A stretch of 64,000 nt of DNA, from positions 372,001-436,000 of the forward strand of contig NZ_CP046620.1 of the NCBI RefSeq assembly GCF_009931615.1, in the 5' to 3' direction. The translations under genes were made by a program, and so were the position numbers. The stretch is from Algicella marina (lineage in GTDB: Bacteria > Pseudomonadota > Alphaproteobacteria > Rhodobacterales > Rhodobacteraceae). Under the pieces are notes generated by a model. It saw only the letters and a list, made by a program, of their open reading frames with translations. It searched no databases and had not been told where the DNA came from. Numbering within the stretch: the first letter of the stretch is position 1; each line of letters opens with the position of its first letter. This document shows, one piece after another, positions 17,773 to 54,722 of the stretch.

Positions 17773-17782
17773 GGAAGTCCGT

Positions 17783-33893: not shown

Positions 33894-34050
33894 GAGTTCG
33901 GAATGACGCAGCAGGCGGGATTTGGCAAGGCCCCTGGCATCGGCCGGCGCTGGCGGGCTGTTGGAAAAGGGGCACATGGGTGAGCTTGTGCAGGTTGTAA
34001 CACTTTAATGACACTTTTCTGGATATCCTGATCCGGGAGGAGGATTAGTG

Positions 34051-34509: not shown

Positions 34510-34570
34510 GGGCTTTCGTGAACCGGTGGCTGACCAAGCTTTCGGCAGATATTCCAGTATTTGCCTGTCT

Positions 34571-34591
34571 GGCGTCGGGCCGCCCTTTTTT
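34571..34591 (+). terminator. Weak intrinsic terminator after the secreted hypothetical
   Basis: GGCG (34571-34574) and CGCC (34581-34584) form a short stem with a six-base loop, followed by C and six T. The stem is short, so efficiency is doubtful, but the T-run is good and it lies 62 bases after the stop. Confidence 0.35.
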
Positions 34592-34652
34592 CAGCAAATT
34601 TGTGCGTTTCAGATAGGCAAACCGGGGCATAAGTCTTAATGGTGGCGCGAGA

Positions 34653-34676
34653 GCCGCGCGGTGGAAGCCGCGTGGC
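34653..34676 (+). other. Nine-pair stem-loop in the leader of the CpsD-like gene
   Basis: GCCGCGCGG (34653-34661) pairs with CCGCGTGGC (34668-34676), with one G-T wobble, around a six-base loop. It is 70 bases before the kinase-like gene's start. It could be a leader RNA structure or an operator. Confidence 0.4.
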
Positions 34677-34745
34677 ATAATCGTGATTGCGGTTTGGTAA
34701 GTGGTTCATCGCCGACGGATATGTGTTCCATCGGCAGGGGGTAGA

Positions 34746-35645
34746 GTGTTGCAGGCGCAGACGGAAAGACAGGCTTCTTTGGCGGAAGATAAAATTACGC
34801 GATCGCCACGGCAGGCGGCCAACGACAAGGTAGAAGACGCGGAGATCGTCCGCGACGCATCGCATGCGGAACGGGTTCGCTCTTTTGTGCTGGGGCACAG
34901 CAGCCAACCACCGGTCATGGAAGCCCAAATTGGCGGTGGGGCCGGTTGGGAGGCGCTGACGCAGGTTCAGCTGAAGCAGCGTCACCTGGCCCGCAATCGA
35001 ATTCTCACGGGCGACAAAGTTACGCCGGTGATGGAGTCATTCGACATGCTTCGGGCGCGGATGGTGAAGGCCCTGAAGGACAACGGCTGGAACCGCGTCG
35101 CCATCACTTCGCCCACCAAGGGCTGCGGCAAGACCTTCCTTGCCGCCAACCTTGCGATGAGCTGTGCGCGGCAAACAGGCCTGCGCAGCGTTCTGTACGA
35201 TATGGATTTCCGCAATCCCAAGCTTGGCTCCGTTCTGGGCGTGCGGGCGCCGGGGCCGTTCAACGAGTATCTCTATGACGGTCTGGCGCCGGAATCGCAC
35301 CTGATACGCGTTGCCGACAACCTAGCCGTGGGCCTGAATGACAAGGCGATGGCGGAACCGACGGATCTGCTGTCCTCCGACAAGACGGAGGAGACTATTG
35401 CCAAGATGCAGGACGCCCTGAAACCCGATGTGGTGCTGTTCGACATGCCGCCGATGCTGGTTTTCGAGGACGTGATGACCTTCCTCTCCCGTGTGGACGG
35501 TGTGCTGGTGGTCTCTGGCGGTCACACCACAAAGGCAGAGGATATCCGCGAAGTGGAGCGCCGCCTCGAGGACAAGGCGCCGCTGCTTGGCGTGGTGCTG
35601 AACATGGCCGAAGGTGTGCGCAAGCGTCGCGGCCGGGTGTACTGA
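34746..35645 (+). CDS. CpsD/CapB-like ATPase (BY-kinase family) of the exopolysaccharide locus
   Basis: A 299-residue cytoplasmic P-loop protein of the bacterial tyrosine-kinase/MinD-like group that works with Wzz-type chain-length proteins. It has Walker A SPTKGCGKT (122-130), Walker A' VLYDMDFRNP (Asp152, Asp154) and Walker B VVLFDMPPML. The Walker A has Cys where BY-kinases usually have Glu before GK. The C-terminus ends RGRVY with one tyrosine rather than a tyrosine cluster. GTG 34746 is chosen for the AGGGGG site just upstream. Its expected Wzz partner is encoded 19 kb away at 54877. Kinase activity is not certain. Confidence 0.85.
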   Translation: MLQAQTERQASLAEDKITRSPRQAANDKVEDAEIVRDASHAERVRSFVLGHSSQPPVMEAQIGGGAGWEALTQVQLKQRHLARNRILTGDKVTPVMESFDMLRARMVKALKDNGWNRVAITSPTKGCGKTFLAANLAMSCARQTGLRSVLYDMDFRNPKLGSVLGVRAPGPFNEYLYDGLAPESHLIRVADNLAVGLNDKAMAEPTDLLSSDKTEETIAKMQDALKPDVVLFDMPPMLVFEDVMTFLSRVDGVLVVSGGHTTKAEDIREVERRLEDKAPLLGVVLNMAEGVRKRRGRVY

Positions 35646-35686
35646 CGGCACGCCGTAATTTAGCTGCCGAGCGAGACCGACCGAGC

Positions 35687-37051
35687 CTAGCTGCCGATGT
35701 CCAGTAAAGTCAGGAGATCGGCGTGGTTCGTCCAGACGATGAGTCCGCCGAACAGGAGGCCGACTGCGGCAAAGACCCCGTCATGTAGCGGATCCCATGC
35801 GCCTGCGCGGCGGGTCAGCCATATGACCATCGGGTAGACGAGCACGATGCCTATGGCCTGACCGGCAATGCCGCCAAGCAAGCCGAAATAGTGGATGCCC
35901 AGGATCAGGCCGCCGATTTGCAGCACGGCCTTGGCGAAGACGAGTGCGGCGTAGTAGCGGGATTCGCCCGCGGCCAGCACCGCCTGATCGTAGCTCATGA
36001 TGATGACCATCGGAATTTGCATGACGGCAATGCCGACCACCATCGCCCCGGCGGCGTAGTAGCGTGAATCGTAGAGCAGGTGGACCAGCGGCACGCCGAC
36101 AAAGCCGGCGACGATCAGCATGGACACGATCCCGCCGGTGAGTGCAAAGCGCATCTTGCGGACACCGCGGAAGTTTTCGGCAGATGCGCCGGGCGGGCGC
36201 TCCCTGTAGATTGGAATGAGGATGCGCCAGGCGACGGAAGTTGCAAGCAGCAGCGGGAAACTGGCAAGGAAATAGCCGATATTATAAACGCCGAGGTTGC
36301 TGAGGGTCAGGTACTTGGCCAGCACGATCTTGTCGCCCTGCGACAGGATAAAGCCGAAGGCGGTGGACAGAAATATCCACTTGCCGAACCCGACGAGATC
36401 GCGCACGGCGTCACGTTCCCACCGGAAGCGGTTGGACGTTCCCGGCACGAAAACATTGGAAATGAGGATCTTGGATACCGCACCCACGATACCGCCGATG
36501 ACAAGCGCCCAAACAGATTGCAGCAACCAGGCGAACAGGACCGTGGCGACGATGCCGATGATCTGAATTGCCATTTCCAGCAGAGTTACGCGCCCGAGGT
36601 TGAGGTGGCGGTTGGCGGATTCGAGCCTGGTGGGGAAAAAGCCCTGAATGACGAGAATTGCGCCGGCGACGGGGATGAGTTGCGCCAGTTGCGGTTCCTC
36701 ATAAAAGTTGGCGATCGGCACGGCGACGAGGACGGTCAGCAGCCACAACAACAGGCCGCGGATAACGTTCAATGTCCACGCAGTGTTCAGGAAATCTTCG
36801 TCGTCGCCGCGTTTGTTCTGCTGGATCGAGGTGTTGATGCCGACATCGGAGAAGTTGGTGAGACCCTGCATCACCACCATGACAAGCGCCATCAGGCCAA
36901 ACGCTTCCGGAAACAGGATGCGCGTGAGGATGAGGTTGGAGGCAAGCCGCAGGATCTGGGAAGTGCCGTAGCCGAAGATCGTCCAGAAGGAACTGCGCAT
37001 CGCCCTTGCGAACAGCGAATTGTCCTTGAGGATGGAGGCAAGCCTGCTCAT
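35687..37051 (-). CDS. Polysaccharide flippase (MOP superfamily, Wzx/PST type)
   Basis: A 454-residue integral membrane protein with about 12-14 hydrophobic segments. The N-terminus (FWTIFGYGTSQILRLASNLILTR) is typical of PST/Wzx exporters. It is expected to flip undecaprenyl-linked repeat units across the inner membrane. It lies downstream of the WecG-like gene on the same strand with a 39-base gap, and converges on the CpsD-like gene. Confidence 0.9.
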   Translation of the reverse strand: MSRLASILKDNSLFARAMRSSFWTIFGYGTSQILRLASNLILTRILFPEAFGLMALVMVVMQGLTNFSDVGINTSIQQNKRGDDEDFLNTAWTLNVIRGLLLWLLTVLVAVPIANFYEEPQLAQLIPVAGAILVIQGFFPTRLESANRHLNLGRVTLLEMAIQIIGIVATVLFAWLLQSVWALVIGGIVGAVSKILISNVFVPGTSNRFRWERDAVRDLVGFGKWIFLSTAFGFILSQGDKIVLAKYLTLSNLGVYNIGYFLASFPLLLATSVAWRILIPIYRERPPGASAENFRGVRKMRFALTGGIVSMLIVAGFVGVPLVHLLYDSRYYAAGAMVVGIAVMQIPMVIIMSYDQAVLAAGESRYYAALVFAKAVLQIGGLILGIHYFGLLGGIAGQAIGIVLVYPMVIWLTRRAGAWDPLHDGVFAAVGLLFGGLIVWTNHADLLTLLDIGS

Positions 37052-37090
37052 CGCGCGATGCTTCCGGAATGGATGGTCGTCATTTGCCGG

Positions 37091-37894
37091 TCAACCCGAT
37101 GTGGCCGCGCGCTGGCGCATGGCGGCGATGAGTTCGCCGGGCAGTATGGCCAGGCATCGGGCGTATCGCGGTACCAGCCGCCTGGGGCTCGAAAGCATGC
37201 GCCACACCCATTCCATGGCGATTCTGCGGACCCAGAGCGGCGCGCGTTGCTGGTGACCTGAAAGGAAGTCGACACCGGCGCCGACGGAGGCGAAACCGAC
37301 CGACGGGGCGATTGTCCGACCAAATGCCGCGAAGATTTCCTGCTTGGGCGCGCCGAGGGCGATGAAGCAGAGGCGGGCGCCGGAGGCATCCAGTTCCCTG
37401 AGAATCGCCTCGGCCTCCGGCCCGCCAGGCTCAAACCCCATTGGCGGCGCCTTCGCATAAGCGACGCGCAGGCCGGGAACCTTGGCTTCAAGGTCATCCT
37501 TGGCACCTGCAAGGGCCTCTTCGGTGCTGCCGACAAGGGCGAGGGGCATGTCCGACTCTGCTGCGAGGCGGGCCAGAGGCAGCACGAGATCGGACCCCGG
37601 CATCAGAGTTACCGGCTTGCCCGCAAGCTTCGAAAGCCAGACGATCGGGTTGCCGTCGGCGCAAACGAGATCCTGCCTGGCATAAGCCTCGGCGAAGACG
37701 GGTGAGGCGCGGAGTTTGACGAGGTGGTCGAGATTGATGGTCGCGAGGGCGAAACCCTCACGCCGTTGGAATCGTGACGCCACTTCCGCCATCAGTGCCG
37801 CGCGATCGGGCATGTTGACGGTTATCAACTGGCTGTCGAAACGAAAATCCACACCAAACTCCACACAGGAACGGGAGGATATCCGCCCGCTCAT
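37091..37894 (-). CDS. WecG/TagA/CpsF family glycosyltransferase
   Basis: A 267-residue GT26 enzyme. The family pattern is clear: TINLDHLVKLRASPVFAEAY, DGNPIVWLSKLAG, then GAPKQEIFA and VGAGVDFLSG, then RAPLWVRRIAMEWVWRM at the C-terminus. Relatives transfer N-acetylmannosamine(uronic acid) or other sugars to lipid-linked acceptors; the donor here is unknown. ATG 37894 has GAGG at good spacing; a GTG three codons upstream is less likely. It shares an upstream region with the divergent oxidoreductase gene. Confidence 0.92.
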   Translation of the reverse strand: MSGRISSRSCVEFGVDFRFDSQLITVNMPDRAALMAEVASRFQRREGFALATINLDHLVKLRASPVFAEAYARQDLVCADGNPIVWLSKLAGKPVTLMPGSDLVLPLARLAAESDMPLALVGSTEEALAGAKDDLEAKVPGLRVAYAKAPPMGFEPGGPEAEAILRELDASGARLCFIALGAPKQEIFAAFGRTIAPSVGFASVGAGVDFLSGHQQRAPLWVRRIAMEWVWRMLSSPRRLVPRYARCLAILPGELIAAMRQRAATSG

Positions 37895-38003
37895 GCAACC
37901 CACCTCGGCTCTAGCCCGTCCTCAGTGGATTGTCGAACACTTCGTCCCGGCAGCCGTGACGATTTGCATATTGCCTGTTTCTTCTACGCTGGAATGTGGC
38001 GGA

Positions 38004-38023
38004 AATTGTACCGCATGGCACAA
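38004..38023. promoter_or_regulatory. Inverted repeat in the WecG/oxidoreductase divergent region
   Basis: ATTGT (38004-38008) and ACAAT (38019-38023) form an inverted repeat with a ten-base spacer in the ~275-base divergent region. The stretch GCACAATAAT here resembles GCACAAATAAT at 61589-61599, before the sugar-transferase gene. Operator function is a guess. Confidence 0.25.
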
Positions 38024-38169
38024 TAATTGGTGGTTTGGTGCTCAAATGTGCAGAAAATCCAGTCTTCGACAGCCTGTGTCGTTGCGCAGAAAGTCAGGCC
38101 GGTGCTACATGGCGCGGGTTTCGAAAGTAAGTTGTAAAGGGCCGCAAAGTTGGGCTGGCAGATGTTTGC

Positions 38170-39297
38170 ATGAGCAAATTCGCGATCATCGGATGCGGCT
38201 TTGTCGCCGATCTGTATATGGGATCTTTCCGGACGATGCCGGAGGCGGAGATCGTGGGTGTCTACGACCTGGATCACGCGCGGCTGAAGACCTTCTGCGA
38301 CCATTGGAACCTGAAGGCCATGGAGTCGCGCGAAGCGCTCTTCGAAGCTCTGCCGGAAGGCGGAATTGTGCTGAACCTGACCAATCCGGACGCGCATTTC
38401 GCCGTCAGTTCGGCGGCCCTTGAGGCCGGATTCCACGTGTATTCCGAGAAGCCGCTGGCGACACGGATGGACGATGCGCGGGCATTGCATGCGCTGGCCG
38501 GTGAGAAAGGGCTGCTGCTGGCCTCCGCCCCTTGCAGCGTGCTGGGAGAGACGGCGCAGACGTTGGCACGGGCCGTGCGGAAGGGTGTGGCGGGAACTCC
38601 ACGGCTGGTGTACGCCGAACTTGATGACGGCTTCATTTCGCAGGCGCCATACGACAAGTGGACGAGCGAGAGTGGCGCGCCGTGGCCAGCAGAGGATGAA
38701 TTCCGCGTCGGGTGCACGCTGGAGCACGCGGGCTATTACCTGACATGGCTGATGGCGATGTTCGGACCGGTGAAGACCGTTGTCGCCGCTTCGGCCACTG
38801 TGGTTCCTGGAAAGGTTCCGGGGGAGGAAACCGCGCCGGACGTGTCTATCGCCACGCTCTTCTTTGAAGGCGGCATGGTGGCACGTCTTACCTGTACCAT
38901 TGTTGCGCCGCACGACCACCAGATCCGGGTGGTCGGTGACAAGGGCACACTGGCGGTGAAAGAGGCGTGGAACAACGCCGCACCGGTGAAGTTTCACCGA
39001 CGCTTCACGTTGCGGCGACGGCTGGTGGATATGCCGGTCGGGCGAAAGGTGAGGCTGGACACGAAGGAAACCCATCCGAAGGTTGGCCGGTGGGGCGCCG
39101 CGAGCATGAATTTCGCCCTGGGACCGATGGAAATGCTGCAAGCGCTAACAGAAGGGCGGGATTGCCGTCTTTCTGCCGATTTTGCGTTACATCTCAACGA
39201 GGTGACGCTGGCGATTCAGGGTGCAGGTGCACATTCGGGGGCGCAGGAGATGACAACACGCTGTGAGTTGATGGAGCCGATGCCATGGGCAGGATGA
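38170..39297 (+). CDS. Gfo/Idh/MocA family oxidoreductase
   Basis: A 375-residue NAD(P)-dependent sugar oxidoreductase. The Rossmann start is FAIIGCGFVADLY (Gly8, Gly10), and the family EKP motif is at residues 93-95, with the lysine as expected catalytic residue. The C-terminal alpha/beta domain follows. The substrate is probably a nucleotide- or lipid-linked sugar. It overlaps the epimerase gene by 13 bases, forming a pair that recurs as one fused protein at 42509. Confidence 0.9.
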   Translation: MSKFAIIGCGFVADLYMGSFRTMPEAEIVGVYDLDHARLKTFCDHWNLKAMESREALFEALPEGGIVLNLTNPDAHFAVSSAALEAGFHVYSEKPLATRMDDARALHALAGEKGLLLASAPCSVLGETAQTLARAVRKGVAGTPRLVYAELDDGFISQAPYDKWTSESGAPWPAEDEFRVGCTLEHAGYYLTWLMAMFGPVKTVVAASATVVPGKVPGEETAPDVSIATLFFEGGMVARLTCTIVAPHDHQIRVVGDKGTLAVKEAWNNAAPVKFHRRFTLRRRLVDMPVGRKVRLDTKETHPKVGRWGAASMNFALGPMEMLQALTEGRDCRLSADFALHLNEVTLAIQGAGAHSGAQEMTTRCELMEPMPWAG

Positions 39298-40289
39298 CGG
39301 TGCTGATCACCGGCGCCTCCGGCTTCATCGGGGAGCGGGCGGTTGCTGCAGCACGCAAGCGCGGGCACCTGGTGGTGGCTGTCCTGCGCCGGGCCGAGGC
39401 TGCGCCGAAGGCTTGGGCGGCTGACGGCGGCATCATGACCGTGGTCGTGGACCTAGCCGCAAAAGGTGCGGAGAAGACACTGACCGAGGCGATGCAGCCT
39501 GTGGATGTGGTAATCCATGCCGCGGCAAAGCTTGGCGGCGATGATGCGGAACAGTCCGGCGCCACGCTCACGGGTACCAGGACGGTGATAGCGGCAATGC
39601 TTGGGCGCGATGGCGCTGCACCAAGGTTGGTGCTGGTCAGCTCTCTTTCCGTCTATGGCGCGACAGGCCTGCAGGTGGGTGGGTCGCTGACGGAGAAGAG
39701 CCCGCTGGAAACGCATCCGGACATGCGGGACGCCTATTGCCGGGGCAAGCTGGCACAGGAAGACATGGTCAAGAAAGCGGCGCTGAAACACGGGTTTCCG
39801 CTTTGGATATTGCGACCCGGGGCGGTCTACGGTCCGGGCAGGGCGTGGAACGCGCATCTCGGCATCGGGCTGGGGCCGTTGCTGTTGCAGGTGGGCAGAG
39901 GCGGAGAGGTGCCGCTTTCGCACGTGGAGCATTGCGCCGAGGCGATGGTGTTGGCTGCCGAGGTGACACCGAAGGATGGTGCCATAGAATTCTGCAACGT
40001 GGTGGATAGCGTTCTGCCAACGCGCAGCGCTTTCGTGGCGGAGCATCAACGCAGTGGCTGGCCGCTGAAGGCGGTTGTCCTCCCTTACGGGATATTCAGC
40101 CTGATGTCGAAACTGATCGCCTATTTGCCCGATGGCCTTCGCGCGAAATTGCCCGGGCTGCTTCGTCGGCCGGTGCTGGATGCACGCATGAAGCCGTTGA
40201 CCTACCCCAACAAGATTCTGCGCGAGCGGCTGGGTTGGCAACCAAGCCGCGAATTCTCCGACGCGCTGCGTGAGGCCTGGGATGAGTGA
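39285..40289 (+). CDS. NAD-dependent epimerase/dehydratase (extended SDR)
   Basis: A 334-residue extended short-chain dehydrogenase with GASGFIG at 10-16 and the catalytic pair Tyr151/Lys155 (YCRGK). A VSSLSVYG segment provides the expected serine region. It acts on a nucleotide or lipid-linked sugar. ATG 39285 is taken; ATG 39294 is also possible. It overlaps the oxidoreductase upstream (13 bases) and the glycosyltransferase downstream (8 bases). Confidence 0.9.
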   Translation: MGRMTVLITGASGFIGERAVAAARKRGHLVVAVLRRAEAAPKAWAADGGIMTVVVDLAAKGAEKTLTEAMQPVDVVIHAAAKLGGDDAEQSGATLTGTRTVIAAMLGRDGAAPRLVLVSSLSVYGATGLQVGGSLTEKSPLETHPDMRDAYCRGKLAQEDMVKKAALKHGFPLWILRPGAVYGPGRAWNAHLGIGLGPLLLQVGRGGEVPLSHVEHCAEAMVLAAEVTPKDGAIEFCNVVDSVLPTRSAFVAEHQRSGWPLKAVVLPYGIFSLMSKLIAYLPDGLRAKLPGLLRRPVLDARMKPLTYPNKILRERLGWQPSREFSDALREAWDE

Positions 40290-41514
40290 ATTCAGGGGGC
40301 CGATCGCCTATCTGACGGGCGAGTATCCACGCGCGACAGACACATTCATCCAGCGCGAGGTGGCAGGGCTTCGGGCGCAGGGTGTCGAGGTGTTCACCTG
40401 CTCGATCCGCCGGACGGGCGTGGAGCATCTGGTCGGGCCGGAGCAAAAGGCCGAGGCGGCCTCGACCTTCTACGTGCTGGCGGCGGCCAAGCGGCCATTG
40501 CGGCTGCTGAAGGCGCATCTTGCGGCTATGCGCCGTGCGCCGGCGCGTTATTTCGCGGGTCTTAGACTGGCGTTGAAAACGCGACCTGCCGGATTGAAGG
40601 GCTTTTTCTACCAACTCTTCTATTTTGCTGAAGCGGTGTTGCTGGGGGAGTACCTGCACGAGAAGGGTGTGGTGCATCTGCACAATCACATCGCCAAGGC
40701 CAGTTGCACCGTCGCGATGCTGATGCAGGAGGTGAGTGGCATCGGGTATTCCTTCACGATGCACGGACCCGATATCTTCTATGCGCCTGAGCACTGGCGG
40801 CTGGACGAGAAGATCGCGCGTGCGAAGTTCGTGGCCTGCATCAGCCATTTCTGTCGTAGCCAGGGGATGAACTTTTCCGGGCGTGAGCATTGGCACCGGA
40901 TGCACATTGTCCATTGCGGCGTCATCCCGGAGCGTTACGCACTGGAGCGGCGCGGCAGGGGGCCTGTGCGTGCACTGTTCATCGGCCGGCTGGCGGCGGT
41001 GAAGGGCGTGCCGGTGCTGCTGGAAGCGCTGCGCGACGTGCCGGAACTGGAACTGGTGTTGATCGGTGACGGGCCGGAGCGGCGGGCGCTGGAAGCGGAG
41101 GCGCGGGAACTGGGCGGCCGCGTGAAATTCCTCGGCTACCAGAGCCAGGACGCGGTGGCCGAGGCGCTGGCCGAGGCCGACATGCTGGTGCTGCCGAGCT
41201 TTGCCGAGGGCGTGCCGGTGGTGCTGATGGAAGCGATGGCCGCGGGCCTGCCGGTGGTGACGAGCCGTGTGGCAGGCATTCCCGAACTGGTCGAGGACAA
41301 GGTGAGCGGCCTTTTGGTGCCGCCGGGAGACACGGCTGCATTGGCCGAGGCGTTGACGACACTGGTGGAGGATGCCGGCCTGCGACGCGAGATGGGCGAG
41401 GCCGGCCGCGCAAAGGTGGAGGCCGAGTTCAACCTTGCGCATGAAGTGCCTTGGCTGGGGCGGCTGCTGGCGGCTTACGTGGAGGACGGGCCGAAGCCCG
41501 GTTTGCGGCCATGA
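40282..41514 (+). CDS. Glycosyltransferase, GT4 family
   Basis: A 410-residue GT-B fold enzyme. The C-terminal donor-binding domain has RALFIGRLAAVKGVPVLLEAL and the E-x7-E motif region SFAEGVPVVLMEAMAAGLPVV. The N-terminus TGEYPRATDTFIQREVAGLR is typical of exopolysaccharide GT4 enzymes. Donor and acceptor are unknown. ATG 40282 overlaps the epimerase stop by eight bases; its own stop overlaps the next ATG by four. Confidence 0.92.
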   Translation: MSEFRGPIAYLTGEYPRATDTFIQREVAGLRAQGVEVFTCSIRRTGVEHLVGPEQKAEAASTFYVLAAAKRPLRLLKAHLAAMRRAPARYFAGLRLALKTRPAGLKGFFYQLFYFAEAVLLGEYLHEKGVVHLHNHIAKASCTVAMLMQEVSGIGYSFTMHGPDIFYAPEHWRLDEKIARAKFVACISHFCRSQGMNFSGREHWHRMHIVHCGVIPERYALERRGRGPVRALFIGRLAAVKGVPVLLEALRDVPELELVLIGDGPERRALEAEARELGGRVKFLGYQSQDAVAEALAEADMLVLPSFAEGVPVVLMEAMAAGLPVVTSRVAGIPELVEDKVSGLLVPPGDTAALAEALTTLVEDAGLRREMGEAGRAKVEAEFNLAHEVPWLGRLLAAYVEDGPKPGLRP

Positions 41515-42482
41515 CCGTCGCGGCCGTGGCCATTGGGCGGAACGAGGGCGAGCGGCTGGAACGCTGCCTTGCCTCGATGCAGGGCGTGGCCGATGTGCTG
41601 GTCTACGTGGATAGCGGCTCGAAGGACGGCAGCGTCGCGGCGGCCCGCGCGGCGGGCGCGGAGGTTGTGGAACTGGACATGAGCCAGCCTTTCACTGCGG
41701 CGCGGGCGCGGAACGCGGGCTTCGAGGCTCTGGCGGAGCGCGGGATGGCGGTGGACTTCGTACAGTTCGTCGACGGCGACTGCGCGCTGGTCGAGGGCTG
41801 GCTACCGGCGGCACGCGCGGCACTGGAGGCGGACGAGGGACTTGGCATCGTCACGGGCTGGCGCAGCGAGATTCACCGCGATGCCAGCATCTACAATCAG
41901 CTCTGCGACTTTGAATGGCGCCGCCCGGCCGGGCCGATCCTGACCTGCGGTGGTGACATGATGGTACGCCGGTTGGCGTTCGAGCAGGCGGGCGGTTTCG
42001 ACCCGACGGTTATCGCCGCCGAGGATGACGAATTCTGCGTAAGAATCCGTGGCAAGGGCTGGAAGATGGAGCGGTTGCCACTGGAGATGACGCGTCACGA
42101 TGCAGCGATGACCGGTTTTGGCCAGTGGTGGCAGCGGGCGGTACGAAGTGGCCACGGCTTCGCGCAGGTCGGTTGGCTGCATCCCGAGTATTTCGTGAAG
42201 GAGCGCAAGCGCGTGTGGTTCTACGGCTTCGTCCTGCCCGTGATTGCGGTACTGGGGTTGCTGCTCGTGTCGATCCTGGTGCCACTGCTCGTGCTGGGCG
42301 TCTATGGGCTGAACTGGTGGCGCACGTCCAAGGGATTGGTGCGCGAAGGTCTGCCGGCGGCGGAAGCACGGCGGCATGCGGTGCTGATCACACTTTCGAA
42401 GATTCCGAACATGCTGGGCATGTTAACATTTCACTGGCGCCGATTCAGGGGCAGTGCCATGCGGATCATCGAGTATAAATGA
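41511..42482 (+). CDS. Glycosyltransferase, GT2 family, membrane-associated
   Basis: A 323-residue GT-A enzyme. It starts TVAAVAIGRNEGERLERCL and has the metal-binding FVDGDCA (DxD-like) and CGGDMMVRR segments. Two or so hydrophobic helices near residues 235-270 suggest membrane attachment. ATG 41511 overlaps the previous stop (ATGA). It probably adds one sugar of the repeat unit; the donor is unknown. Confidence 0.92.
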   Translation: MTVAAVAIGRNEGERLERCLASMQGVADVLVYVDSGSKDGSVAAARAAGAEVVELDMSQPFTAARARNAGFEALAERGMAVDFVQFVDGDCALVEGWLPAARAALEADEGLGIVTGWRSEIHRDASIYNQLCDFEWRRPAGPILTCGGDMMVRRLAFEQAGGFDPTVIAAEDDEFCVRIRGKGWKMERLPLEMTRHDAAMTGFGQWWQRAVRSGHGFAQVGWLHPEYFVKERKRVWFYGFVLPVIAVLGLLLVSILVPLLVLGVYGLNWWRTSKGLVREGLPAAEARRHAVLITLSKIPNMLGMLTFHWRRFRGSAMRIIEYK

Positions 42483-42508
42483 TATCGAATGGATAGGTTG
42501 TTGAGTTC

Positions 42509-44605
42509 ATGACGAATACATTGCGCGCAGGTCTGGTGGGCGCCGGATACATCGCCACGTGGCACGCCAACACGATCAAGGCATTGCCGGGGGTGGAATT
42601 GACGGCGGTGTGCGATACCTCGCCCGCCGCCGCCGAGGCGCTGGCAGGTGCCTACGGTGCGAAGCCCTTCACCTCGCTGGACGACCTGATCGCCGCCGGG
42701 ATCTGCGACGCGGTGCACATCGTGACACCGCCGCAGGTGCACAAGGATCTGGCCATTCAGGCGATGGAGGGCGGGCTGCACGCTTTCGTCGAAAAACCCG
42801 TGGCGCTGGGCGCGGAAGAGACGGCGGCGATGCAGGCGGCCTCTGAGGCCACCGGAAAGATCTTCGCGGCAGGGCACAACTTCCTCGGCACGCCGAAATA
42901 CGAGAAGCTGAAGGGCATGGTGACGAGCGGCGAACTGGGCCGCATCGCCTCGGCCGAGATCAACTGGCGCTTCCCGCTCGCGCCGCTGCGCTCGGGCCCC
43001 TACACCATCTGGATGCTGCGCGAACCGAAGAACCTGCTGCTGGAGCTTGGGCCGCATCTCTATGCCTTCTGCGTCGATCTGTTCGGCGTGCCCTCGGATT
43101 TCACGCTGCGCCTTTCCAAACCCGTGGCGCTGCCGGGCGATGACATCCGCCACCAGGTGTGGCGGATCATGTGCACGGCGGGCGGGGTGGATGTGACGTT
43201 CCACCTCTCGCTGGTCGAGGCGCTGGACGACCGCAGCGTGACGGTGCGCGGCTCGGCCGGGATGGCGCTGCTCGACTATGCCAACGACACGCTGGTGGTG
43301 ACGCGGGAGAATGCCTCCGACCTGATCCTCAACCCGTTCCGCCGGGCGGCGGGGCAGGGGATGCAGAACCTGAAGGAGGCGTTCGGGAATGCCTTTCTGC
43401 AGACACGCACCCTGAACCAGAAATCGCCATACGGGCTGAGCTTCCTCGGCACTATCGGGCCGTTCTACGAGGCGATCCGCGATGACAAGCCGATCGACAG
43501 CCGCTTCTCCGGCGCGTCTGCCGTGAAGGTGATGACGGCGATCGACGAGACGGTGGCGCTGCTGCCGGGATACGTGCCTGTGGCCAAACCGGCGACGCGA
43601 AAGCCCGAGCCGAAGGTGATGGTGATCGGCGGCACGGGCTTCATCGGGCGGCACCTGACGCGGACGCTGGTGGAACGCGGGCACGATGTGCGCGTGCTCA
43701 GCCGGGGCCGCAACGGGCCGTTCCCCGATCTGGCAGACCACGTGGAAACCGTCGGCGTTTCACTGAAGGACCGCGCGGGGCTGGCGAAGGCGATGGAAGG
43801 GATCGATGTGGTCTACAACCTCGCCAAGTCGATGGACGACACGTGGGAAGCGGCGCTGGAAAACGATGTGGGCGTGGCCGTGGGCATCGCAGAGGCTGCG
43901 CTGGAAGCGGGCGTGAAGCGGCTGATCTACACCGGCACCATCGCCTCCTACAACATGGCCTCTCCCGAGGGCACCATCACCGAGGACGTGAGCTTCGGCG
44001 ACGATCTGACGGACCGCAACATGTACGCCCGCTCCAAGGCTGAATGCGAGCGGCGGCTGATGGAAATGCACCGCGAGAAGGGGCTGCCGCTGGTGATCGC
44101 GCGGCCCGGCATCGTGATCGGGCCGGGCGGGCCGTTGCAGCACTGGGGCATCGGGCGCTGGCACGGGGCGGGTGCCGTGCGCATCTGGGGCCACGGGCGC
44201 AACATCCTGCCCTTCGTGCTGATCGAGGATGTATCGGACGGGCTGATCCGGATGATGGACAACGAGGATGCCGTCGGCCGGTCGTTCAACCTCGTCGGCG
44301 AGCCGATGATGAGCGCGAGGGGCTACTTCGACGCCATCCACGAAGCTTTGGGGGCGAAGATCGACGTGCGACCGGGCAATCTGCACATGTTCCATGCCGC
44401 TGCCAGCGTGAAGCATTTCCTGAAGACGAAGGTGCTGGGGCGCAAGGGATTGAGCCGTGCCTCGTTGAAAGACTGGCAGAGCCGTGCGCATTTCACACCG
44501 TTTGACAACCGGCAGCCGAAAGAGATTCTCGGCTGGGAACCGGAGACGGACCGCCAGACGTTTATCCAAAAAGGTATAATCGACGCCAACCTTATGGGGT
44601 TCTGA
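42509..44605 (+). CDS. Fused Gfo/Idh/MocA oxidoreductase - NAD-dependent epimerase
   Basis: A 698-residue bifunctional protein. Residues 1-365 are a Gfo/Idh/MocA oxidoreductase (GAGYIA at 11-16, EKP at 95-97). After a short Pro/Lys linker (about 363-371), residues 372-698 are an extended SDR with GGTGFIG at 374-380 and the catalytic Tyr506/Lys510 (YARSK). The domain order equals that of the two separate genes at 38170 and 39285, but the sequences differ clearly. The frame is continuous with no stop or frameshift. It should catalyse two redox/epimerisation steps on a sugar; the substrate is unknown. Confidence 0.92.
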   Translation: MTNTLRAGLVGAGYIATWHANTIKALPGVELTAVCDTSPAAAEALAGAYGAKPFTSLDDLIAAGICDAVHIVTPPQVHKDLAIQAMEGGLHAFVEKPVALGAEETAAMQAASEATGKIFAAGHNFLGTPKYEKLKGMVTSGELGRIASAEINWRFPLAPLRSGPYTIWMLREPKNLLLELGPHLYAFCVDLFGVPSDFTLRLSKPVALPGDDIRHQVWRIMCTAGGVDVTFHLSLVEALDDRSVTVRGSAGMALLDYANDTLVVTRENASDLILNPFRRAAGQGMQNLKEAFGNAFLQTRTLNQKSPYGLSFLGTIGPFYEAIRDDKPIDSRFSGASAVKVMTAIDETVALLPGYVPVAKPATRKPEPKVMVIGGTGFIGRHLTRTLVERGHDVRVLSRGRNGPFPDLADHVETVGVSLKDRAGLAKAMEGIDVVYNLAKSMDDTWEAALENDVGVAVGIAEAALEAGVKRLIYTGTIASYNMASPEGTITEDVSFGDDLTDRNMYARSKAECERRLMEMHREKGLPLVIARPGIVIGPGGPLQHWGIGRWHGAGAVRIWGHGRNILPFVLIEDVSDGLIRMMDNEDAVGRSFNLVGEPMMSARGYFDAIHEALGAKIDVRPGNLHMFHAAASVKHFLKTKVLGRKGLSRASLKDWQSRAHFTPFDNRQPKEILGWEPETDRQTFIQKGIIDANLMGF

Positions 44606-44624
44606 AATTTTGAGGAGGAGATTT

Positions 44625-44792
44625 GTGACGGAGGGCACAGAAACGGAACCGCATTCCGGGCATACCTGTCCCTGTCACGACCTGAAACGAATGAGTTATT
44701 GTAATGCGTTACGAGTGTACGGACAGATTTGTAAACGGTATCGAGAAAGTGCGCTTTCAGGCGACTGTTCCAGGGGGCGTCGTGGCAGGTAA
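44625..44792 (+). CDS. Possible short cysteine-containing leader ORF
   Basis: A 55-codon frame beginning with GTG 44625, seven bases after the strong ribosome site GAGGAGGAG. It encodes five cysteines, including HTCPCHD, and ends TAA 44790-44792. It overlaps the following glycosyltransferase frame in a different register. Its stop lies 11 bases inside a candidate GTG start (44782) of that gene, an arrangement that would allow translational coupling. It resembles no family I know and may be non-coding. Confidence 0.3.
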   Translation: MTEGTETEPHSGHTCPCHDLKRMSYCNALRVYGQICKRYRESALSGDCSRGRRGR

Positions 44793-45981
44793 CAAGTCGT
44801 CAAGTATCGAGGATCGCCCCCTCAGGATTGCCTATCTTAGCGACCTCGACCCGCGGTTGTCGTGGACCTATTCAGGCGGCAACAAGCGGATCCTGGAAAG
44901 CGTGAAAAAGTTCGGCGACGTGACAGTGCTCAGCAGTGAGTGGCACGCCATGGAGCCGGTGCGGCGCCTGCTGGAAAAATTGCCCGAAAGTCTTTTGTTG
45001 CGCTCCCGCTTCCGGACGCACATGCTGCTCTCGCGGATCATTTCCAACGGCGTCCGGCGGGAACTGGCACGGGGACAATATGACGTTTTGTTTGCCTCCT
45101 ACAGCTTTCACAGCCTTCTGAACCTGACGCCGCCCTATCCGATCACGACGGTGTTCACATCCGACGCGACACAGACCATTTACAAACAGTCCGTGGTGGG
45201 GCGGGCGCACGGATCGTTCTTCTCTCCCGCACGCCTGCTGGACTCCTGGATCGAGGCCAACGAACGGAAGGTGTTGCGCAACACGGACCTGTTGCTGTGG
45301 CCGTCGGAATGGATGAAACGCGGCGCGGATGAGCGGTATGGGCTCAGCGAGGAACAATCCCATCTTGTGCCGTGGGGCGCGAACATCGCCATGCCGCCAA
45401 AGGATTCCATATCTATCGAAAATCCGATGGATGAGGAGGTTAACCTGCTGCTCGTCGGGCGAGATTGGGAACTGAAGGGCGGCCCGACGGCCGTGGCGGT
45501 GCTTGACGCGCTGAAAGCCAGAGGTATCCGGGCGCGTCTGACGGTTATCGGTTGCCGTGTTCCCGACGCGGACCGCCGCCCGGAGCTGACCGATCACGGC
45601 TATCTCGACAAGAACGTTCCAGAGCAGAGGCGCATCTTTGACGAGGCGTTCCGCACAGCGCATTTCGCGCTGATCCCGTCGTTTGAATCCTACGGCTTCG
45701 CCTTTTGCGAGGCATCTGCCCACGCCATTCCGTCGCTGTGTCTGAATGTCGGTGGAGTGCCGGTGTTCAACGGGGTCAACGGCTTTGCACTGCCGGTTGG
45801 TTCCGGCCCCGAGGATTTCGTGGCACGGATAGCGTCCTTGCGCGACGATGCTGCCCAGTATTCAAGCCTGCGTGCAAGCAGCCGCCAGTTCTACATGGAG
45901 ACATTGAACTGGGGTGCATGGCGCAAGAAGGTCGAGAGCCTGATCCGAGAGAAGGTGAGCCAACGCGAGGCGAGGGCCTGA
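44704..45981 (+). CDS. Glycosyltransferase, GT4-like
   Basis: A GT-B-type enzyme of up to 425 residues. The recognisable domain starts at about residue 40 (LRIAYLSDLDPRLSWTYSGG). The C-terminal half has VNLLLVGRDWELKGG and PSFESYGFAFCEASAHAIPSL, the donor-binding E-x7-E type region. The ATG at 44704 has no ribosome site; GTG 44782 with AGGGGG upstream would give 399 residues and is just as likely. It closes the plus-strand run of six genes and converges on manC. Confidence 0.88.
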   Translation: MRYECTDRFVNGIEKVRFQATVPGGVVAGNKSSSIEDRPLRIAYLSDLDPRLSWTYSGGNKRILESVKKFGDVTVLSSEWHAMEPVRRLLEKLPESLLLRSRFRTHMLLSRIISNGVRRELARGQYDVLFASYSFHSLLNLTPPYPITTVFTSDATQTIYKQSVVGRAHGSFFSPARLLDSWIEANERKVLRNTDLLLWPSEWMKRGADERYGLSEEQSHLVPWGANIAMPPKDSISIENPMDEEVNLLLVGRDWELKGGPTAVAVLDALKARGIRARLTVIGCRVPDADRRPELTDHGYLDKNVPEQRRIFDEAFRTAHFALIPSFESYGFAFCEASAHAIPSLCLNVGGVPVFNGVNGFALPVGSGPEDFVARIASLRDDAAQYSSLRASSRQFYMETLNWGAWRKKVESLIREKVSQREARA

Positions 45982-45998
45982 TCGCCAGAAAGGCTGGT

Positions 45999-47411
45999 TC
46001 AGGCCCGTGCGTAAACGTCTTCGTATCGAATGATGTCATCCTCACCTAGATAGGTACCCGTCTGCACCTCGATCAGGTACATCGGCACTTTGCCCGGGTT
46101 CTCCATCCTGTGCACGGCGCCAAGTGGAATGTAGACCGACTGGTTCTCTGACAATAGCTTTACTTCTTCGCCGACGGTGACGCGGGCCGTGCCTGCCACG
46201 ACGACCCAATGTTCCGACCGGTGCATGTGGCTTTGCAGCGACAGGATGCCACCGGGCTTGACCATGATGCGTTTCACCTGGAAACGGGTGTCGATGCACA
46301 AGGTTTCGTACCAGCCCCATGGGCGGTGAAATCGAGGAAAATCAACAGCCTGTGGGATGTCTCGTTGCTTCAGGATCGTCACCACATCCTTCACGCGTTG
46401 TGCATCGTCGAGATTGGCCACCAGCACGGCGTCGCGCATCGCCACGGCGATCGTATCTTTCAGACCGAGGCCGACAAGTTGCATGCCCTTGTCCTCCGAG
46501 CGCAGCAACGTGTTCTCACAATGCACGGCTGTAGCGGAGCCGTAGGTGGCATTGCCGCTCTCATCCTTGTGGAGGGCATCCAGAATCGCATCCCAGGCGC
46601 CGAGATCGGACCAGCCGCCACCGTAGGGGACGGCCGTGATGTTGTCGGATTTTTCCATCACCGCATAGTCGATGGAGACGTCGCGGGCCTCGGCATAAGC
46701 TTCTTCGCCAAGGCGGAAGAAGCCGAGGTCAGGGCTGGCGGCTTCCCATGCGGCCTTGCAGGGCGCGAAAAGGTCGGGAGCTTTCGCTTCGAACGCCGCG
46801 AGGATGTCGCGAACGCGGAACAGGAAGATACCCGCGTTCCACAGGTAATTTCCGGCGGCGAGCATTTCCTCGGCGCGTGGCAGCTCCGGTTTCTCGACGA
46901 ATTTGCGCACGGACTGAGAGTTGCCATTGTCCGGGGAGTCGGCGAGTTCAAGGTAGCCATATCCGGTTTCCGCCCGCGTCGGGGTGATCCCGAAGGTGAC
47001 GAGCTGGCCGGACCGTGCTGCCTCGGCACCCTTTTCGACTGCTGCGCGGAAGCCGGCTTCGTCACCGATCAGGTGATCGGACGGCGCGACGAGCATCAGT
47101 GCGTCGGGCGTGTCAGCGAGTGACAGTGCGGCTGTCAGGATGGCGGGTGCGGTGTTGCGTGACGCTGGTTCTATCAGGATGCGGGCGTCGGCCAGCCCAA
47201 GTTGTGCCAGTTGATCCGTGACCAGAAAACGGAAGTCCGCATTTGTCATCACCACCGGCGCATCGAAATCCGGGCCGGATAGGCGGCGGCAGGTCGCGAT
47301 GAAAGGGCTATCGTCACCCACCAGTGAGGAGAATTGCTTGGGATAGGATTTGCGGGAAAGCGGCCACAGCCGCGTGCCGGAGCCTCCGCAGAGGATGACG
47401 GGGGTAATCAT
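45999..47411 (-). CDS. manC: Mannose-1-phosphate guanylyltransferase / mannose-6-phosphate isomerase
   Basis: A 470-residue bifunctional enzyme supplying GDP-mannose. The nucleotidyltransferase domain begins GGSGTRLWP (residues 9-17), with the downstream FVEKPE motif. The C-terminal cupin (type II phosphomannose isomerase) has HRSEHWVVVAGTARV. ATG 47411 gives the usual MITPVILCGG start; an upstream ATG at 47426 would add five residues. It is the last gene of the minus-strand export operon and shows that the polymer likely contains mannose or a GDP-mannose-derived sugar. Confidence 0.95.
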   Translation of the reverse strand: MITPVILCGGSGTRLWPLSRKSYPKQFSSLVGDDSPFIATCRRLSGPDFDAPVVMTNADFRFLVTDQLAQLGLADARILIEPASRNTAPAILTAALSLADTPDALMLVAPSDHLIGDEAGFRAAVEKGAEAARSGQLVTFGITPTRAETGYGYLELADSPDNGNSQSVRKFVEKPELPRAEEMLAAGNYLWNAGIFLFRVRDILAAFEAKAPDLFAPCKAAWEAASPDLGFFRLGEEAYAEARDVSIDYAVMEKSDNITAVPYGGGWSDLGAWDAILDALHKDESGNATYGSATAVHCENTLLRSEDKGMQLVGLGLKDTIAVAMRDAVLVANLDDAQRVKDVVTILKQRDIPQAVDFPRFHRPWGWYETLCIDTRFQVKRIMVKPGGILSLQSHMHRSEHWVVVAGTARVTVGEEVKLLSENQSVYIPLGAVHRMENPGKVPMYLIEVQTGTYLGEDDIIRYEDVYARA

Positions 47412-47459
47412 GAAATCGGATTCCATTTGCCTGAAACTGTTGGCCTATCCTAGAGTGAA

Positions 47460-47488
47460 GCCTGCTCCCGTGCCTAGCCGAAGCAGGC
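47460..47488 (-). other. Stem-loop between the beta-barrel gene and manC
   Basis: GCCTGCT (47460-47466) and AGCAGGC (47482-47488) are perfectly complementary around 15 bases. On the minus strand it follows the beta-barrel stop by 14 bases and is not followed by a good T-run, so it may be a partial terminator or a processing site inside the operon. Confidence 0.3.
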
Positions 47489-47502
47489 GGCGAAACGCCA
47501 AT

Positions 47503-49505: not shown

Positions 49506-49573
49506 GGTTACAGTGCCTCGATCACGAAATGGAGCGCCGGCTCACGAAACCCAGCGCATTTGGTTGCAAGTTT

Positions 49574-49591
49574 ATGGCCACTGGCGGCCAT
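49574..49591. promoter_or_regulatory. Inverted repeat upstream of the SLBB export gene
   Basis: ATGGCC-N6-GGCCAT is a perfect six-base inverted repeat in the 164-base gap between the ExeA-like gene and the export gene (both minus strand). It is 69 bases before the export gene's start. Operator or RNA hairpin; not resolved. Confidence 0.3.
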
Positions 49592-49669
49592 GACAAAGGA
49601 AAACCGCCGCTTCGGCCGGATGGACGCAGCGCAGAGGTGCGCATTTGCAACATGCAGGCTGCGGAATGT

Positions 49670-51993: not shown

Positions 51994-52334
51994 GGAAACT
52001 TCCCAGACATTTGCAACTCGACAACAATATGCGGCCTGATCGTGCGGCCCTGAGCAAGAGCGCTACCATCTCGTCCACCTCCAGCCAAGCGGCAGACCGC
52101 ACTTGCACACCTGCAACTGCCACAACTTTGACAATTGCCACGTTTACGCTGGTTTAAGTGGCACTGCGGCACTGCAGCAATGGACTTAAGATGCCCACGC
52201 ATTTACGATTTTCACGACGATGTCTGGCCTCGATGGCGTGGCATCGGGGGTATAGACAGGGTTCTCGATGAGTTTGGACACTCCATTCGCTTTCGCGCCT
52301 GTGCATCGCATGGTTGGCGAAGGAACGGTCTGAG
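51994..52334. other. Intergenic region, divergent control of two exopolysaccharide operons
   Basis: These 341 bases separate the minus-strand glycosyltransferase operon from the plus-strand GMC operon and hold no convincing gene. They should contain both promoters. An inverted repeat TTAAGT (52154-52159) / ACTTAA (52184-52189) lies mid-region around a GGCACTGCGGCACTGCAGC direct-repeat stretch. Several TTGCAACT/TGCAACTG/TTGACAATTG-like words occur at 52017-52140. No consensus promoter could be fixed. Confidence 0.5.
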
Positions 52335-53939
52335 ATGGGCATTCAGCAAACGGCTGCAGAACTGGCGGAACGCCACTGGGACGTGATCGTGATCGGCACG
52401 GGGATCGGCGGTGGCACGCTGGGCCGCAGGCTGGCGGAAGCCGGACGATCCGTGTTGTTTCTCGAATTCGGGCAGGCGGGCTATCGGCGCGAGCAGCAGG
52501 GACTGGATTCGGAACTGGGTGACAGAACGGCGCGTGAGTTGCGCGGCTACTGGCCGGTGCCGATGCGGGCGCGGATCGATGGCCGGGAGAGCACCTTCTA
52601 CAGCCCGACGGGAGCAGGTGTCGGCGGATCTTCGGTGTTCTATGCCGCATCGCTGGAGCGCCCGGAACCACATGATTTGGACGACAGTCCGGAGCGACCG
52701 CACCCTACGGGTGGCTGGCCGGTGAGCTATGCCGATTTCGCGCCTTACCTGACCGAGGCCGAAAGGATGTACCACGTTTGTGGCACGCCGGACCCGCTGG
52801 GCAGCGACACGGCTGATGGCATCTGTGAACCGCCGGATATGACTACGGGCGACGTGGCGATGCTGAAGGGGCTGGAAGCCTCCGGCCTGCACCCCTATCG
52901 GGTGCATATGGGCTTGAAGTATCTACGGGATTGCCAGGAATGCATCGGATTCAAATGCCCACGCTCGTGCAAGATGGATGGCCGCTCCGCCGGAGTGGAG
53001 CCGGCATTGGCGACGGGGCGAGCGAGCTTGCTGACGGGCTGCCGGGTGCGCAGGCTGGAGCATGCGGATGGCAGGGTGCAGGCCGTGGTGGCGGATGTCG
53101 CTGGCGGAGAGATGCGGTTTCATGCTGATGAGTTCGTGCTGGCGGCGGGCGCGTTGAGCTCTCCGCGTGTCCTGCTTGCCTCCAAATCGGAAGAGGCGAC
53201 CGAAGGCCTCGGCAATTCGGCGGGCCTGGTCGGTCGCGGGCTGATGTTCCACCTCAATGAGATGATCGCACTCTGGCCAAAACGCGGTACGGAGTTCGCG
53301 GGTCCGACCAAGGCGCTGGCGCTTCGGGACTTCTATTATCGCGAGGGCGCGCGGTTCGGCAGTTTTCAGGCGATGGGTGTCGATGCCACCTATGGCAGTA
53401 TCGTCCATTTCCTGAACGGCATGTTCGACCGGTCTTTCCTGCGCCGGTTCAGGACCTTGCGCGAATTCACCCGCATTCCGGCGGCAATCGCTGCAAAACT
53501 GTTCGGCGACGCCAAGATCTTTACCGGTATCCTCGAAGACTTGCCCTATCCTGAAAACCGGGTGTTGCTGAGCGCTGAGAACCCCGACGAGATCATTGTG
53601 GAATACAACCTTGCCCGCGAACTTCTGGAGCGCCGACGTAAATTTCGGCGCGCGATCCGCAAGGGACTGAAAGGGCACCGCTTTTTCTTTCTCGGCTTCG
53701 GACCGGAACTGAATTTCGGCCATCCCTGTGGGACGTTGCCGTTCGGTGCCCAGCAGGCCAACAGCGTTCTGGACATGGAATGCCGGGTCCACGGTGTGGC
53801 CAACCTGACGGTGGCCGATGCTTCCTTCATGCCCACATCGACGGGGGTCAACCCGAGCCTGACAATTGCCGCCAATGCACTGCGGGTGGCCGATTGCATG
53901 CTGGCGCGCGGTACGGTGGAAATGCAGGAGGCTGTCTGA
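52335..53939 (+). CDS. GMC-family FAD oxidoreductase in exopolysaccharide locus
   Basis: A 534-residue flavoprotein. The ADP-binding start is DVIVIGTGIGGGTLGRRL, the GMC_oxred_N region follows, and the C-terminal signature is GHPCGTLPFG with TGVNPSLTIAANALR containing the active-site pair. A Cys-rich segment DCQECIGFKCPRSCKM near residues 197-212 is unusual and could bind a metal or cluster. ATG 52335 has GAAGGA ten bases upstream; a TTG seven codons earlier is possible. It directly abuts an SDR gene, suggesting a two-step redox change of one substrate. Confidence 0.9.
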   Translation: MGIQQTAAELAERHWDVIVIGTGIGGGTLGRRLAEAGRSVLFLEFGQAGYRREQQGLDSELGDRTARELRGYWPVPMRARIDGRESTFYSPTGAGVGGSSVFYAASLERPEPHDLDDSPERPHPTGGWPVSYADFAPYLTEAERMYHVCGTPDPLGSDTADGICEPPDMTTGDVAMLKGLEASGLHPYRVHMGLKYLRDCQECIGFKCPRSCKMDGRSAGVEPALATGRASLLTGCRVRRLEHADGRVQAVVADVAGGEMRFHADEFVLAAGALSSPRVLLASKSEEATEGLGNSAGLVGRGLMFHLNEMIALWPKRGTEFAGPTKALALRDFYYREGARFGSFQAMGVDATYGSIVHFLNGMFDRSFLRRFRTLREFTRIPAAIAAKLFGDAKIFTGILEDLPYPENRVLLSAENPDEIIVEYNLARELLERRRKFRRAIRKGLKGHRFFFLGFGPELNFGHPCGTLPFGAQQANSVLDMECRVHGVANLTVADASFMPTSTGVNPSLTIAANALRVADCMLARGTVEMQEAV

Positions 53940-54722
53940 GTGACGATCGAGAACGGGCGGATCAGCGGCGGTATCGCCGTGATAACGGGTGCCGGCGCAG
54001 GGCTAGGCCGGGCGCTATCCTTGCGTCTGGCGGCGGCGGGATTGACAGTCGCGGGTTTGGGGCGTCGGCTGGAGCCGCTGGAAGAAACCGGCGCGGCTGC
54101 CGATGGACGCTTCGTTCCGATTGTTGCCGATGTTGCCGATGCCGCGGCGGTTCGCGCGGCCTTCGCACAGATCGACACGCTGGGCGGCGATATCGCCATC
54201 CTGATCAACAATGCCGCCATCTACGAGCGTTTCGACTTTCTTGCAGAACCTCCGGAAGTCTACATGCGCTCGGTCAATGTCAATCTCGGCGGGACGATAG
54301 CTTGTTGCCACCAAGCGCTGTCGCGGATGGTGGAACGCGGCAACGGCCGGATTGTCAACGTTACCACATTCGCCGATCTCGCGCCGTTGCCAGGCAGTTC
54401 GGCCTACAGCGTTTCCAAGGGGGCCGGCCGGATTTTCACGCGTGCGCTGATCGCCGACATGGGCGACCGCTTCCCCGATATTGTCATCAACGACTGGATA
54501 CCCGGCGCACTGGCAACGCAAATGGGCATCGCCGACGGTATCGTGCCGGAGCAAGCGGCGGCGTGGGGGGCGGAGTTGGCCCTGCAGCACGACCGCAGCC
54601 TGATGGGCACCCTGTTCGACCGCGACCGCGAAGTTTTGCCACCCCGATCCCTCAAGGGCAGAATTCGCGATCTTGTGCTCTTTCAGCCCAAACGGGTGGC
54701 GAGGGTGATGAATTCTGCGTGA
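53940..54722 (+). CDS. Short-chain dehydrogenase/reductase paired with the GMC oxidoreductase
   Basis: A 260-residue classical SDR with TGAGAGLG at 16-23, NNAAIYERF, and the catalytic Tyr156/Lys160 (YSVSK). A basic tail after residue 230 (LKGRIRDLVLFQPKRVARVM) is not needed for the fold and may mediate membrane or protein contact. GTG 53940 follows the GMC stop with no gap, so the two proteins are probably made together. The Wzz gene follows after 154 bases. Confidence 0.9.
   Translation: MTIENGRISGGIAVITGAGAGLGRALSLRLAAAGLTVAGLGRRLEPLEETGAAADGRFVPIVADVADAAAVRAAFAQIDTLGGDIAILINNAAIYERFDFLAEPPEVYMRSVNVNLGGTIACCHQALSRMVERGNGRIVNVTTFADLAPLPGSSAYSVSKGAGRIFTRALIADMGDRFPDIVINDWIPGALATQMGIADGIVPEQAAAWGAELALQHDRSLMGTLFDRDREVLPPRSLKGRIRDLVLFQPKRVARVMNSA

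Follow-up and report, generated by a model that had tools for sequence, protein, structure and literature searches.

Results

Two Modules of Similar Build in a Polysaccharide Locus

The 64,000-nucleotide stretch of Algicella marina DNA that we analyzed (hereafter the window) contains two modules built from a Gfo/Idh/MocA oxidoreductase and an SDR. In one, which we call the split pair, the two proteins are encoded by separate plus-strand genes: a Gfo/Idh/MocA oxidoreductase of 375 amino acids (38170..39297) and an extended-type SDR of 334 amino acids (39285..40289), whose gene overlaps that of its neighbor by 13 nucleotides. In the other, both folds are found in a single plus-strand product of 698 amino acids (42509..44605), the fusion, in which the Gfo/Idh/MocA domain occupies approximately residues 1–355 and the SDR domain approximately residues 366–698. 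An earlier note on this DNA had described overlapping Gfo/Idh and SDR genes and one 698-residue protein, and the open reading frames bear this out to the nucleotide. Pfam recognizes all of these domains at scores well over its cut-offs: GFO_IDH_MocA (67.6 bits) and the C-terminal domain in the first gene of the pair, Epimerase (87 bits) in the second, and GFO_IDH_MocA (93.8 bits, residues 6–123) and Epimerase (122.2 bits, residues 370–595) in the fusion. By the same models both oxidoreductases have the N-terminal Rossmann domain and C-terminal α/β domain of the Gfo/Idh/MocA family.

Between the modules, and also on the plus strand, lie the genes for an EpsE-like GT4 glycosyltransferase (40282..41514), whose start overlaps the stop of the SDR gene, and for a GT2 glycosyltransferase with a hydrophobic C-terminal segment at about residues 234–271 (41511..42482), which shares a 4-nucleotide ATGA overlap with the GT4 gene. 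With these overlapping starts, the region from 38170 to 44605 can be regarded as one tightly packed unit. Divergent from it on the minus strand, and conserved beside the cassette, is a gene for an EpsA-like glycosyltransferase of the WecG/TagA/CpsF family (37091..37864). Further along the plus strand is a third oxidase of the locus, a GMC (FAD) oxidoreductase (52314..53939), followed directly by a classical SDR that is its putative reductase partner (53940..54722); of the 28 related loci that are complete, 17 have a GMC homologue in the vicinity of the cassette, accompanied by the classical SDR. RmlB/D/A-like dTDP-sugar genes (57283–60030) were recognized by eye in the reading frames, as were further polysaccharide genes in the window, and the locus also encodes a tyrosine-kinase-like protein, a Wzx-type flippase, a WecG-type transferase, and several glycosyltransferases. 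An Rfam search of positions 34000–50000 matched no family, and promoter and terminator matches at the locus were at chance level.

The earlier note held that the same pair is present twice. This is so for the folds and for the domain order, which is Gfo/Idh then SDR in both modules, but not for the sequences, the respective halves being about 25%–27% identical (25% over 166 amino acids, E = 9e-9, for the Gfo/Idh parts and 26% over 324 amino acids, E = 3e-15, for the SDR parts), nor for a catalytic position that is Tyr in the split gene and His in the fusion. The wording is too strong, the likeness being one of folds only. The split SDR gene is fast-evolving.

Catalytic and Cofactor Residues

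The split Gfo/Idh protein displays a GxG motif, Asp33, an EKP motif (Lys94), and Tyr189 at the position of the catalytic His, which we located by alignment to WlbA; its SDR partner displays TGxxGxxG, Arg35, Ser120, and the Tyr151-xxx-Lys155 pair. The corresponding residues of the fusion are Asp36, Lys96, and His183 in the Gfo/Idh half and Arg399, Tyr506, and Lys510 in the SDR half. Both SDR domains have the TGxxGxxG-type motif and the YxxxK motif with Ser/Thr that mark an extended SDR. The EKP lysine is invariant across homologues of both Gfo/Idh domains (Lys94 and Lys96), and YxxxK is conserved among homologues of both SDR domains. The statement of the earlier note that all catalytic motifs are intact is therefore correct for EKP and YxxxK, but it overlooked the third Gfo/Idh catalytic residue, at which the split gene carries Tyr, the minority variant of a His/Tyr position. 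His183 of the fusion is found in 28 of 28 homologues and Tyr189 of the split gene in 13 of 13. Among all the rows aligned, Tyr occupies this position in 25 of 25 that represent the split Gfo/Idh and its stand-alone kin, and His occupies it in 28 of 28 fusions and 23 of 23 other rows.

An Asp after the second β-strand is the usual signature of NAD binding, and both Gfo/Idh domains have it in every pair and fusion row aligned. In the same rows both SDR domains instead have an Arg after β-2 (Arg35 and Arg399), which as a rule of thumb is the usual signature of NADPH; the acidic residue found there in epimerases and dehydratases of the NAD-bound type is absent from both. The Arg thus points to SDR domains that would be reductases of the NADPH type. 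A loss of NAD binding in one half, which the earlier note named as evidence that would tell against its proposal, is not seen, the NAD(P)-binding motif being kept in both halves.

Comparison with Characterized Enzymes

No reaction can be transferred to either module by annotation, because all scores against named families of NCBIfam fall far under the curated cut-offs. The model for UDP-GlcNAc 3-dehydrogenase (NF040723) scored 36.1 bits with the split protein and 91.5 bits with the fusion (cut-off 450), the model for HpnA, a hopanoid-associated sugar epimerase, 50.8 and 87.9 bits (cut-off 367.65), and the OleD model 74.6 bits with the fusion (cut-off 580). HpnA- and OleD-like SDRs, the closest NCBIfam models of the SDR halves, share with them a Rossmann SDR fold and YxxxK.

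Sugar C3 dehydrogenases are among the best matches of both Gfo/Idh parts. WlbA is one for each of them, and the half in the fusion also matched GnnA, GenD2, and KanD2 by sequence or structure. These enzymes resemble both Gfo/Idh parts in fold, NAD-type Asp, and EKP Lys, and their catalytic His is kept by the fusion. They differ in being single-domain proteins whose keto products pass to aminotransferases, whereas in the modules described here the partner is an SDR. In KijD10-type 3-ketoreductase and in glucose-fructose oxidoreductase the catalytic His is replaced by Tyr, as in the split Gfo/Idh; sequence similarity to these enzymes is weak, however, KijD10 binds NADP, and they have no SDR partner. 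The structure of the KijD10 Y186F mutant was among the PDB matches of the fusion.

An AlphaFold2 model of the fusion, built from 9 sequences, had a mean pLDDT of 74.9 and a pTM of 0.52, values that support the two folds but not their placement relative to each other. A structure search with this model (VIA-align) returned Z scores of 31–35 for the Gfo/Idh half, and only Gfo/Idh proteins were among the matches listed. The model of the split SDR had a good Rossmann core and a substrate region with pLDDT below 50, and its structural matches were generic SDRs.

Distribution of the Fusion Protein

When the two halves of the fusion were used separately as queries against 289 genomes of the class, both matched the same long frame at strong scores in 13 genomes, below which the scores dropped clearly to those of stand-alone proteins. 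A phylum-wide search added further members from outside the class. In all, members of the fusion family were seen in Rhodobacteraceae, in other alphaproteobacterial families, in other Pseudomonadota, and in one planctomycete. They have in common the order Gfo/Idh–SDR, a length of about 700 amino acids, and halves that are both best matched by other fusions; in the trees of both halves the fusions, including that of the planctomycete, form one group (SH-aLRT 99–100). Matches to glycosyltransferase families lie nearby in most of the fusion loci read. In a second subgroup, from other alphaproteobacterial families, the fusion gene mostly has a GT4-like gene directly after it and not a GT2 gene before it. 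The fusion is often found without the pair, and mostly so outside its own group.

By its distribution, the fusion represents an old, widespread, and uncharacterized family of enzymes. Its sole annotation is "NAD-dependent epimerase/dehydratase family protein," and a search of literature lying largely outside subscription journals found no paper describing this fusion. The earlier note would have given up its idea on seeing unrelated origins and widespread occurrence of a fusion with a known reaction: the fusion does occur widely, and descent from the pair was not demonstrated, but a search for a known reaction of the fusion found none.

At least two other proteins that join these folds look separate in origin. 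One, from Azospirillum (L051), has the same domain order, but the trees place it apart from the fusion clade; its independence is likely but not proven, since the placement rests on long branches. The other, from another alphaproteobacterium (L226), is a protein of 725 amino acids in the opposite order, SDR–Gfo/Idh. Both are like the fusion of the window in uniting the same two folds in one protein and in lying in glycan loci. A further protein of Gfo/Idh–SDR build was seen in Bradyrhizobium. Homologues of the fusion with frames of about 880 codons were considered as candidates for a third domain, which was rejected on inspection by eye, the extra length being read as upstream open frame.

Relationship of the Fusion to the Split Pair

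The earlier note called for a tree to see whether the fusion arose from the adjacent pair, and a recent descent of this kind is not supported. It is excluded by the distribution of the fusion, which forms a deep, widespread clade, and the His/Tyr character is also against it. In the tree, the split Gfo/Idh falls among stand-alone enzymes (SH-aLRT 99), one of which is encoded in the same genome (278967–280049), and it shares its Tyr with these kin while the fusions have His, which argues against the split gene as the specific parent of the fused half. A more ancient common origin of the two modules is not rejected: approximately unbiased (AU) tests of a clade uniting pair and fusion gave p = 0.51 and p = 0.54 for the two halves, and in the class-wide search the split SDR had the SDR half of the fusion among its better matches.

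Conserved Gene Order and Co-occurrence

We surveyed 198 genomes of Rhodobacteraceae, one per genus. Of these, 38 carry the split Gfo/Idh gene, 31 carry the fusion, and 27 carry both, a co-occurrence for which Fisher's test gives p = 2e-20, a value that overstates independence because the surveyed genomes are related to one another. In the 28 loci that hold all five genes the order is Gfo/Idh–SDR–GT4–GT2–fusion, in nearly all of them with genes that overlap or lie only a few nucleotides apart, and as this order recurs in more than 25 genomes the arrangement is beyond chance.

Within the unit, the split pair evidently goes with GT4, which in related genomes normally lies directly 3′ of it, in all but a few loci, and GT2 directly precedes the fusion in every locus read of subclade A, the subclade of the window. 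The exceptional loci fit this division. Three hold GT2 and the fusion only and one holds GT4–GT2–fusion; in Ruegeria conchae the unit is intact except for the split Gfo/Idh gene, which has moved elsewhere; on a Paracoccus plasmid GT2 and the fusion stand alone amid unrelated genes; and a plasmid of the planctomycete carries GT2 (50% identity) and the fusion (36%) in a polysaccharide locus of its own, without the pair. That GT2 and the fusion are retained together in such loci indicates that the fusion is tied to GT2 in the window's subclade. The link is not absolute, since four loci in as many genomes (L138, L139, L141, and L142) have the pair, GT4, and GT2 without the fusion. These fusion-less loci are nested in the GT2 tree, two of them with long GT2 branches, which suggests that the fusion was lost. 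Two further loci (L143 and L146) hold only the split Gfo/Idh gene and lack the other genes of the unit.

Discussion

We tentatively propose that the two modules are parallel devices for sugar editing by oxidation and subsequent reduction, each with its own glycosyltransferase, that act in exopolysaccharide synthesis. In each, the NAD-type Gfo/Idh domain would act on a sugar that is activated or lipid-linked and oxidize one of its ring hydroxyls, most likely that at C3; the resulting ketone would then be re-reduced by the NADPH-type SDR to yield an epimerized or otherwise rare sugar. The split module would serve the GT4 enzyme encoded downstream of it, and the fused module the membrane-associated GT2 enzyme encoded upstream. 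As formation of a free keto sugar is unfavorable, overlap of the genes in the split module and fusion in the other would serve to hold the two steps together. That these two folds have been joined more than once, in one instance with the order reversed, is evidence for their sequential action.

There are precedents for chemistry of this kind. DprE1 and DprE2, the decaprenylphosphoryl-ribose epimerase, epimerize a lipid-linked pentose by oxidation followed by reduction (PMC10307805); our comparison with this two-enzyme system for a carrier-linked sugar is one of proposed mechanism, because DprE1 is an FAD-dependent oxidase, DprE2 is a classical SDR, and the pair is not homologous to the modules, both of which have an NAD-type Gfo/Idh domain and lack members of the DprE1 and DprE2 families. 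The Gfo/Idh enzyme GenD2 gives no detectable product on its own, product forming only when the downstream enzymes are present (PMC4340712), a case that shows a possible reason for joining both steps. Glycoside oxidases are known among the GMC enzymes as well as the Gfo/Idh enzymes (PMC11239390).

The principal alternative is that the SDR acts first, as an enzyme of the 4,6-dehydratase, 4-epimerase, or 4-reductase type, and that the Gfo/Idh domain is a KijD10-type ketoreductase, the product being a deoxy or branched sugar. We think this unlikely while giving it real weight. The fully conserved Tyr of the split Gfo/Idh is also that of the 3-ketoreductase KijD10, itself among the structural matches, so that the split domain may reduce rather than oxidize; the SDR parts match the general Epimerase family; and the same locus holds the RmlB/D/A-like genes. 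Against this, NADP is the cofactor seen in KijD10 structures, whereas the Asp of both Gfo/Idh domains is of the NAD type; the His of dehydrogenases is present in the fused half; and the split SDR has no confident match to any dehydratase model. Nor is the Tyr peculiar to reductases, as glucose-fructose oxidoreductase, an oxidizing partner, also has it.

The earlier note left open whether the modules act consecutively or in parallel. Consecutive action on one sugar, for example a double inversion at two carbons, would agree with their strong co-retention in one tightly packed run of genes, but we judge it improbable: the fusion and GT2 occur without the pair in four loci (L123, L133, L135, and L048), the four fusion-less loci show the converse, and each module has a separate glycosyltransferase for a neighbor. 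Each module can thus work alone, and of the two options parallel action is the one favored by co-retention together with the tie of each module to its own glycosyltransferase. Still less probable is that the sugar chemistry of each module is confined to one half, with the other recycling cofactor or having a structural role. In some Gfo/Idh enzymes NAD(H) does stay bound and is regenerated by means of a second ketosugar (PMC11239390), but every fusion aligned, distant ones included, has conserved catalytic residues in both halves. Finally, that the fusion is a joined copy of the adjacent pair, and that both modules carry out the same reaction redundantly, is very improbable, for although the domain order is identical, the AU tests do not reject a common clade, and the split SDR has the fused SDR half among its best matches in the class, the fusion clade extends to a planctomycete mostly without the pair, the split Gfo/Idh sits among stand-alone enzymes with a Tyr found in 25 of 25 of that group and in 0 of 28 fusions, and identity is only 25%–27%. 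The motifs, the exopolysaccharide locus, the co-retention, and the dedicated glycosyltransferases are better fitted by parallel conversion of two sugars than by a duplicated single reaction.

A more specific version of the parallel proposal is speculative, and taken as a whole we regard it as doubtful. The fusion would be a bifunctional redox epimerase that edits a sugar of a lipid-linked glycan, with handover of the intermediate inside the protein; the locus would stack three oxidase–reductase couples (Gfo/Idh with SDR, Gfo/Idh fused to SDR, and GMC with SDR) for the synthesis of a polysaccharide that contains several unusual stereoisomers; and the recurrent evolution of Gfo/Idh–SDR fusions would reflect a need to prevent release of the keto intermediate.

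If the proposal of two parallel modules is correct, it would give a name to a bifunctional family of sugar-editing enzymes that is widespread in Pseudomonadota and is now annotated only as an epimerase. It would also tie that family to particular glycosyltransferases, and so provide a genomic handle on the rare sugars of marine bacterial exopolysaccharides.

Gene content around the fusion in related loci

The fusion gene does not always accompany the rest of the cassette. Four loci (L138, L139, L141 and L142) contained the split pair, GT4 and GT2 genes and lacked the fusion. In a tree of GT2 sequences the proteins from two of these, L138 and L139, sat on long branches, as if their specificity had shifted following loss of the fusion. 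GT2 and the fusion formed a two-gene island on a Paracoccus plasmid (L048, locus-internal positions 15218–18274), where the surrounding genes were for transport and catabolism.

Genes resembling those for DprE1 and DprE2 were found near fusions elsewhere. In another alphaproteobacterium (L226, locus-internal positions 4281–9434), a fusion of reversed order, SDR–Gfo/Idh, is adjoined by genes for a UbiA-type prenyltransferase and for DprE1-like and DprE2-like proteins, neighbors that are similar to the known set for epimerization of a carrier-linked pentose. Ruegeria conchae (L047, locus-internal positions 2807–6718) has DprE2-like, DprE1-like, GtrA and UbiA-type genes, which lie about 11 kb from its fusion.

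Within the five-gene unit, the split SDR (39285–40289) has diverged far more quickly than the remaining genes. Its median identity to the window copy among the 28 loci holding all five genes was 41%, as compared to 61–63% for Gfo/Idh, GT4, GT2 and the fusion; despite this low value, its catalytic residues were unchanging in an alignment of homologues.

Finally, we note two features outside the cassette. A 684-residue reading frame on the reverse strand (61910–63964) has a C-terminus that, as judged by eye, resembles calcium-binding RTX-type repeats, and its predicted product is possibly secreted. At 52314–54722, a GMC oxidoreductase gene adjoins one for a classical SDR; the two, found again near the cassette in 17 of the 28 related loci, may represent a third oxidize–reduce couple of the locus.
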